A program made the translations under genes and the position numbers. The notes beneath the pieces are model-generated. The model did no database searches and was not told where the DNA came from. It saw nothing but the letters and a program-made list of their open reading frames with translations. From an uncultured Clostridia bacterium (GTDB lineage: Bacteria; Bacillota; Clostridia; Christensenellales; UBA1242), in assembly GCA_947649575.1 (NCBI GenBank), contig CANSRZ010000007.1, positions 1 through 64,000 of the forward strand: DNA of 64,000 nucleotides, in the 5' to 3' direction. Shown here piece by piece: positions 35,127 to 37,498 of the stretch (position 1 is the stretch's first letter; each line of letters opens with the position of its first letter).

Positions 35127-35339
35127 ATGAAAAGGAACTATCCGAGATTTACTTTGCGCGTTTCAAAAGAGCTGTTGGACAAGCTTACATACACCGCTGA
35201 ACTGAACGGCAGAACAAAGAACCGAGAAATCGAATATGTCTTAAAACGATATATGTCAGACTATGAACGACTTTATGGAAAAATTCAAATATCAAACAAA
35301 GAACATAAACAAGATACTCAAGAACAAGAAGTTTCTTAA
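35127..35339 (+). CDS. Arc/ribbon-helix-helix-like small DNA-binding protein
   Basis: PRFTLRVSKELLDKLTYTAELNGRTKNREIEYVLKRYM; RBS aaaggagg. Confidence 0.75.
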   Translation: MKRNYPRFTLRVSKELLDKLTYTAELNGRTKNREIEYVLKRYMSDYERLYGKIQISNKEHKQDTQEQEVS

Positions 35340-35772: not shown

Positions 35773-35848
35773 GGACTGCTAGCTCAGTTGGTAGAGCATT
35801 CGACTCTTAATCGAAGGGTCCGGGGTTCGAGCCCCCGGCAGTCCACCA
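35773..35848 (+). tRNA. tRNA-Lys (anticodon CTT), CCA encoded
   Basis: Acceptor GGACTGC/GCAGTCC, anticodon loop CTCTTAA, T-arm CGGGG-TTCGAGC-CCCCG. Confidence 0.96.
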
Positions 35849-36018
35849 GGGTAATGAACTTTTAAACGTTTGTTACAATGCCGTGTGCTTGCATGCGGTG
35901 CTTCCAGCACCCGAACCCCGTTCTTCCGGGTCGAAGCAGGTCGAAGAAGCGTGAGTGCTTGGCCATTCGCCTGTTGCACACAGTGCAAGGCTCAAAACGC
36001 GCCCCGGCAGTCCACCAG
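35833..36018 (+). repeat. 17-bp direct repeat of the tRNA-Lys 3' end bracketing a GC-rich segment
   Basis: CCCCGGCAGTCCACCAG at 35833-35849 and 36002-36018. Confidence 0.85.
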
Positions 36019-36163
36019 ACAGATTGCAAAACCTGTTACTTCCCAAACGGGAAATCCCCTCTTTTTAAATTTTGCCTCTTTTTGAGGTTTTTATATTTTA
36101 AAAACATAATAATTAATTTTCAAGACAACATATAATATATTGAAAATTATTTTAGGAGTTATT

Positions 36164-37498
36164 ATGGATACCTATTATTTAGTTTATCATATTTGCAATA
36201 TAGTTTTTTATTGTTTGTTTGGCGTTAGCTTTTTGTTAATGCTTTTCAAAATCATTATGCACTTTGTTTCTTTTATGCCTGCAAAAAAGTTTCCGCCTGC
36301 CAAGTCTAAACATAAATTTGCAGTTGTTATCCCTGCCCGAAATGAAAGTAAAGTTATTCATCAAATTTTGGACAGCATAAAAGCTCAGACTTATGACCAT
36401 AACCTTATCGACACATTTTTGATTGTGGAAAGCGAAGAAGACCCAACTTGTGAAATTGCTAAAAAATATGAACGCACTCATGTTTTTGTTAGAAAACACT
36501 TGGAACGCAAAGGCAAAGGTCATGCAATGGACGAGCTTTTTCAAGAATTGTTTGCAGACAAAAATACAGATTATGAAGCATATTTTATTTTCGACGCCGA
36601 CAATGTTTTATATCCAAATTTTATTGAAGAAATGAACAAAACTTTTGACCAAGGTTATGACGTTTGCGTTGGGTATCGAAATTCAAAAAATTGGAATGAC
36701 AATTGGGTTTCATCTTGCAGTGGATTAACATTTTCTATGTTTAACACCTTTGAAAACAAGCCAAGAAGCAAACTGGGACTTAATGTAAATATTTGTGGCA
36801 CAGGCTTTTATATATCTCATCGCTTGCTAAAAAAAGTTGGAGGCTATAAGTTCTTCACTTTGACTGAGGATTATGAGTTTAAACTTTATTCAATCTTAAA
36901 CAATGTTCAAACAACCTACAATGAAGAAGCAAAGTTTTTTGATGAACAACCTACTCAACTTAAGGTTTCTTGGAATCAACGCCTGCGTTGGTGCAAAGGC
37001 TTTTCTCAGGCAAACAAAATTTATCAAAAGAAAATCCTTAAATCTGCCATAAAAGAAAAAAATGGCAAACTTGGTGTAAACAAATTTCAAACTGGTCTTG
37101 GCGTTCTTCCACTGGCTTTCACAATGGCAACAATCTTGCTTTATCAGGCAGTAAACTTAAGCCTTATGATTATTGGTCTTTGCCTGCACAAACCAATTTG
37201 GTATTTGCCAGGAATTGGCGTTGCTGCAAACGGAGTTGCATTGTATATTTTCTTAAGCATTTACACTGCTGTTCTATTGATTGCAGAGCGCAAAAATATC
37301 AATATAACAGCGTGGCATGCCTTTGTTAGCGTTTTGCTAAATCCATTCTTTATGCTTTTGTATCTTCCAATTTATTTGCATTCAGTTTTTAAAAAGGAAG
37401 TTAAATGGGTGGCAATTGAACATAATAAACTTATGAATTCTGAGCCTCAACTTGTAACAGCTGCCGAAAGTAACAATGAAGAAAATTTGCATAAATAA
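36164..37498 (+). CDS. Family 2 glycosyltransferase, membrane-bound
   Basis: VVIPARNESKVIHQILDSI, FIFDADN, QRLRW (NQRLRWCKG), C-terminal TMs. Confidence 0.93.
   Translation: MDTYYLVYHICNIVFYCLFGVSFLLMLFKIIMHFVSFMPAKKFPPAKSKHKFAVVIPARNESKVIHQILDSIKAQTYDHNLIDTFLIVESEEDPTCEIAKKYERTHVFVRKHLERKGKGHAMDELFQELFADKNTDYEAYFIFDADNVLYPNFIEEMNKTFDQGYDVCVGYRNSKNWNDNWVSSCSGLTFSMFNTFENKPRSKLGLNVNICGTGFYISHRLLKKVGGYKFFTLTEDYEFKLYSILNNVQTTYNEEAKFFDEQPTQLKVSWNQRLRWCKGFSQANKIYQKKILKSAIKEKNGKLGVNKFQTGLGVLPLAFTMATILLYQAVNLSLMIIGLCLHKPIWYLPGIGVAANGVALYIFLSIYTAVLLIAERKNINITAWHAFVSVLLNPFFMLLYLPIYLHSVFKKEVKWVAIEHNKLMNSEPQLVTAAESNNEENLHK

Follow-up and report, generated by a model that had tools for sequence, protein, structure and literature searches.

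A GC-rich insert behind a Clostridia tRNA-Lys gene as a member of a probably mobile family of small folded repeats carrying copies of tRNA arms

The described class of small repeats nearest to the DNA reported here is, as far as we found, YPAL/RU-2 of Yersinia, a non-autonomous, intergenic element of ~168 bp that is not AT-rich and harbors internal inverted repeats (De Gregorio 2006; reviewed in PMC2229807), and whose targets span or adjoin regions of dyad symmetry, with target duplications of 3-26 bp (PMC2229807). REP elements, which are small palindromic repeats, are mobilised by RAYT (IS200/IS605-like) transposases and movement in the form of folded single strands has been suggested for them (PMC3733652). 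A different kind of likeness is offered by integrative elements and prophages that target tRNA genes, as these leave the tRNA whole while duplicating its 3' end. In integrons, a folded single strand of attC rebuilds the recombinase site, with extrahelical parts, and arrays grow beside one site.

The units that we describe, one of which lies behind a tRNA-Lys gene in a window of 64,000 nucleotides from an uncultured Clostridia bacterium, resemble YPAL/RU-2 in size, composition, type of target and duplication of the target, a likeness of description rather than of membership. Three features of YPAL- and MITE-like repeats are found in them: they are non-coding and shorter than ~200 bp, they occur in multiple copies at different loci, and their target has dyad symmetry and is duplicated. 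However, YPAL/RU-2, as far as reviewed, is described without tRNA preference, target-copied arms in both orientations or tandem arrays, whereas the units have all three. With 140-180 bp and target-derived arms, they also differ in size and sequence from REPs, which are palindromes of 20-40 bp tagged by GTAG or CGTC. With attC they share the arrays and presumably a folded single strand that rebuilds a site, but no R/L boxes were recognised in them, no IntI was identified and they carry no genes, with one possible captured exception described below. Unlike the integrative elements they have neither integrase nor cargo, measure ~150 bp and combine a conserved core with an inverted copy of the target. 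Literature searches returned no description of tRNA-adjacent units of such a kind.

The tRNA-Lys gene of the window (anticodon CTT; 35773..35848, plus strand) is intact, as judged by ARAGORN and by the Rfam tRNA model (69 bits). The 17-mer CCCCGGCAGTCCACCAG is present in two exact copies separated by 152 bp, the first (35833..35849, plus strand) comprising the 3' strand of the T-stem, the 3' strand of the acceptor, CCA and one G, and the second (36002..36018, plus strand) forming the tail of the unit and the 3' strand of its helix P1. No third match was found in the window at up to 3 mismatches (0.03 expected by chance), and GGCAGTCCACCAG, a 13-nt part of the 17-mer, matched only the two repeat copies in the whole 1.09-Mb genome at up to 1 mismatch. 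The insert between the copies reaches 60% GC, compared to ~20-35% for most of the surrounding DNA, and holds just overlapping ORFs of 69-85 aa, none of them convincing. ARAGORN detected no second tRNA in it, and an Rfam scan of it gave zero family matches above the gathering score. All of this agrees with an earlier note on the window, which had reported the repeat at the same positions, the GC-rich insert and the absence of a clear ORF or second tRNA; it overlooked a 9-nt T-arm copy in inverted orientation, CGAACCCCG, and the unit structure that is common to relatives.

That note had also proposed a search among phages and islands. By blastn the insert gave nothing in its own genome, in 40 related genomes or in plasmids, and when the tRNA and insert together were compared with phages, the insert body was unmatched among the matches listed. 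We attribute the blank result to divergence of the insert, and so relatives were sought via the tRNA-Lys locus instead. This revealed, 3' of tRNA-Lys in relatives, a GC-rich segment with a copy of the tRNA 3' end at its own end, often in tandem. A covariance model (R1), built on an alignment of six relatives, matched in 54 of the 112 genomes of the genus; the remaining 58 constitute absence between species, though strict filters and assembly breaks can hide copies. Conservation of the insert across the genus, which the earlier note had named as evidence against its own reading, was therefore found at the level of a family but not of an identical sequence, the blastn search being blank in 24 congeners.

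Wherever the tRNA 5' of these type I units could be read, it was tRNA-Lys, with a CTT or TTT anticodon; the other type I loci lie at a contig end or after a partial tRNA-Lys end. From 5' to 3', their order is: the tRNA, a terminator-like hairpin after CCA, the P1 5' arm, the hairpins P2 and P3, the left T-arm half first inverted and then direct (the two pairing as P4), P5, the core GGCCATTCG - P6 - CTCATAACG, and finally the right T-arm half with the acceptor and CCA. The P1 5' arm is complementary to the right T-arm half and to some of the acceptor, P4 is the left T-arm half paired with its own complement, and the terminator-like hairpin usually stands 5' of each unit. In most type I units the tail and the P1 arm track the species' own tRNA, such that acceptor ends GCAGTCC, CTGGTCC and CAAGTCC, and others again for the TTT tRNA, are mirrored by both. 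G054 has a tandem array of 2.6 perfect 240-bp copies, and many contigs of relatives terminate inside unit arrays. A loose DNA pattern gave real matches in this genus only, those elsewhere in the order being scattered and chance-like; in viral contigs it gave 120 chance-like matches, and no model match was obtained in the contigs that were fetched.

The window unit, which was absent from the training set of R1, was recovered by this model as a type I tRNA-tail unit of 140 bp and 61% GC (35878..36017, plus strand; 62.2 bits, E 8.5e-16). All of its parts lie on the plus strand. Right after CCA, at the position of the relatives' intrinsic terminator, is an AT-rich hairpin, GTAATGAAC..GTTTGTTAC, without a T-run (35851..35876). 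It is followed by the P1 5' arm (35879..35889), which copies the right T-arm/acceptor half partially and in inverted form and has 35999-36009 as its partner, by the P3 hairpin GGTGCTTCCAGCACC (35897..35911, from sequence and fold), and by the inverted copy of the left T-arm half (35912..35920), the complement of tRNA positions 49-57, a 9-nt match that was reached in 67 of 5000 shuffles. The direct left T-arm half, CCGGGTCG (35926..35933), pairs with this inverted copy 5' of it as P4, and after the P5 hairpin (AAGCA..TGCTT; 35934..35960) comes the conserved type I core, GGCCATTCG - P6 hairpin (35970-35990) - CTCAAAACG (35961..35999), recognised from alignments and family matches. The target is presumed to be the T-arm of the window tRNA-Lys, with a left half L = GTCCGGGGTTCG and a right half R = AGCCCCCGGCAGTCCACCA. 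The unit is decayed, as P2 is almost gone and P1 contains mismatches, and since this copy is both single and worn, its attribution depends on the family.

Folded as a single sequence, the insert was not unusual (z -0.77), meaning that the structural signal resides in the comparison only. We tested covariation on 53 distinct units, in which 89.9% of helix cells were paired, compared to 70.6% after shuffling; double-sided changes occurred at 31 of 38 pairs, and a slide by one column lowered pairing to about 41%. P2, P3 and P6 covary freely even though they are not derived from the tRNA, and the loops of type I units contain conserved motifs. With two end pairs excluded, the units had 54 G-T and 53 A-C mismatches, compared to 27 and 7 in the tRNA stems of the same loci (Fisher P 0.003), in an alignment fitted to a model which, if anything, favours G-U, and with a small tRNA control. 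As RNA under selection should tolerate G-U, the equality of G-T and A-C favours folded DNA over RNA. Moreover, P1 and P4 each pair a T-arm half with its own complement, so that the fold is the DNA duplex of the arm and not the tRNA fold, with the extra branches located at the T-loop point. A tRNA mimic acting at the RNA level was ranked lower given this mismatch balance and the terminators.

A sister core, type II, with the arrangement CCGGCTTTGGCTAAAAA - hairpin - TTTTCTTAACGCGTCG, was found at other tRNAs. By pattern it is present in 24 genomes of the genus, at loci adjoining Arg, Trp, Gln, Leu, Lys and Thr tRNAs, and it is placed either on the 3' side of the tRNA or inverted on the 5' side with the D-arm copied; at one tRNA-Leu the unit copies the anticodon arm. 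A model of the type II core matched in 131 of 376 genomes of the order, spanning 51 genera and often with several copies. Approximately half of the loci sampled in other families lie within 250 nt of a tRNA, adding Ser, Pro and Ala, and some of the remainder are in palindromic intergenic sites. Across units at tRNAs, the target arm is the T, D or anticodon arm, and tails of ~9-22 nt are shared with the adjacent tRNA. At 30 loci the longest match of the tail averaged 13.7 nt with the adjacent tRNA versus 5.3 nt with other isotypes (P 1e-18); between the DNA 5' of the core and the reverse complement of the adjacent tRNA the mean was 11.2 nt versus 7.1 nt (P 1e-8). These P values serve as guides because the loci are partly non-independent. 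In a few cases, L346 and L365, the tail disagrees with the nearest tRNA.

In G070, whose glycosyltransferase is among the two best congener matches to that of the window (62%), a tandem type II array lies immediately 5' of the homologue of the window gene at 36140-37498, which encodes this glycosyltransferase. The window's own genome contains a decayed type II unit after tRNA-Tyr(GTA) (G000 contig C5 95089-95161, minus strand; L404 1501-1660). We had considered the type II core to be specific to tRNAs, a view that was dropped as the core also occurs in other palindromic contexts.

The tRNA-Lys gene is also a true integration hotspot in the genus, where att repeats of 45 nt, starting from the anticodon loop, lie 2.5-16 kb apart. 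Integrative elements or their remnants at tRNA-Lys(CTT) were found, among others, at L047 2257-10117 (G022), L048 2282-4890 (G004), L050 1981-17824 (G110) and L049 2334-12330 (G010). Several loci have a remnant 5' tRNA half slightly 5' of a full tRNA that differs from it in sequence, as if the element had brought a whole tRNA which now uses the host promoter. In G048 (L288 188-14500), a 14-kb segment has a tRNA-Lys(TTT) end, a terminator and a unit at both sides, and seems to be an integrative element that carries the unit beside its att core. The second unit of G005 looks chimeric, and G017 has a unit into which the end of an element is joined. These three cases indicate that units interact with integrative elements, which may therefore also carry them.

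On balance, we somewhat favour the view that the insert is a copy of a family of miniature, non-coding, non-autonomous mobile repeats that target hairpin-forming DNA, chiefly tRNA gene arms. That they move is inferred from the occurrence of the same core at unrelated targets, from presence and absence between species and from the tandem arrays. In the simplest event that would account for the order tRNA(L-R) - flank - inverted arm - L - core - R - flank, an element consisting of the right half, the flank, the inverted arm, the left half and the core would enter between L and R, the two T-arm halves of tRNA-Lys. The tRNA would stay intact since the element itself supplies a copy of its end, the old end would be left as the distal repeat (36002-36018), and further events would give rise to tandem arrays. 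The unit would presumably act as folded single-stranded DNA, served by an enzyme acting in trans, and the steps would follow in the order given. A bolder version, which we hold to be doubtful, is that the element is self-adapting, with a conserved core and flanking arms that contain both strands of the target hairpin; its folded single strand would rebuild the target duplex and steer insertion into new tRNA arms, the arms being re-copied for each target.

The layout of inverted, direct and direct copies could also come from template switching without mobility. Fold-back switching at a quasi-palindromic tRNA arm, with arrays formed by unequal crossing-over and no mobile element, would explain why arm, flank, inverted arm, arm and flank follow one another as expected of a double template switch, and why the tandem arrays have a duplicated flank; but a single core at about ten tRNA isotypes and in 51 genera needs movement or copying of that core, making such a by-product of replication unlikely. 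We give somewhat less weight still to a structured RNA, produced when transcription runs through the tRNA gene, that would act in the processing or regulation of tRNA-Lys or as a binding decoy. The very strong covariation, the conserved loop motifs and the tRNA-like 3' CCA tail that tracks the tRNA are all in its favour, yet a terminator-like hairpin usually precedes each unit, G-U is not in excess over A-C, the pairs restore the arm as a DNA duplex and not as a tRNA fold, about half of the species lack the unit, the sister core is also found inverted 5' of tRNAs and at non-tRNA sites, and Rfam gave no match.

The reading of the earlier note, that a tyrosine-integrase element at the T-loop/3' end of tRNA-Lys lost its cargo and left 152 bp between attL and attR, stands in part: the tRNA 3' end does recur as an exact 17-bp repeat, probably a duplicated target, tRNA-Lys is a hotspot in relatives with their 45-nt att repeats, some integrase elements start right after a unit tail (L047, L112), and the L288 element has a unit adjoining its att core. 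However, the att of genuine elements extends over 45 nt from the anticodon loop, compared to 17 bp here, no integrase was found among the nine neighbouring window proteins scanned, and the insert is a covarying member of a family present in 54 of 112 genomes, whose conserved folded core recurs behind unrelated tRNAs and in tandem arrays. An att scar is thus largely refuted by the repeat family, and we rate it as quite improbable. An assembly chimera or collapsed repeat, which might be suspected as contigs of relatives often end inside arrays, is least probable by far, given that the architecture recurs independently in dozens of assemblies and that the window contains a lone copy, in the interior of a 70-kb contig.

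If the mobile repeat family is real, it would constitute a class of small folded repeats, so far unlabelled and spread across the order within and beside tRNA genes, that copy the adjacent tRNA without breaking it. It would account for duplicated tRNA ends, for GC-rich islets behind tRNAs and for contig breaks, would advise caution in calling such repeats prophage scars, and might reveal an enzyme that inserts DNA at hairpins picked by a folded copy of the target.

A number of further observations were made along the way. In other genera, the type II core is found within palindromic intergenic repeats of the CCCTC..GAGGG type (L388, and L373 2340-2510, a viral contig), hinting at a larger modular superfamily of repeats. 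In L139 (G061) and L102 (G078), tRNA-Lys(TTT) and its units lie between the two Gln tRNAs, not after them, as if the tRNA and array had moved as a block. The same ABC-transporter-like gene follows two different units with an identical junction, ..CATACAACCGTTCTTTAC, in L048 4640-4790 (G004) and in L130 (G191, of another genus), which suggests either a precise recombination or a shared contaminant contig. In L104 743-2076 (G100), a 313-aa protein is encoded by a gene inside a unit, between 26-bp direct repeats, TCGCAAACTTTCAGTTTGGGCCATTC, in the manner of a captured gene cassette; an integron-like gene cassette system, which this locus brought to mind, was dropped, as the protein has no Pfam family and the case is isolated. 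Lastly, a small Arc-like ribbon-helix-helix gene (35127..35339, plus strand; Pfam PF03869, E 1e-5) lies 5' of tRNA-Lys in the window, as does a similar gene in several relatives; it may encode an accessory DNA-binding protein, or its position may reflect mere synteny.
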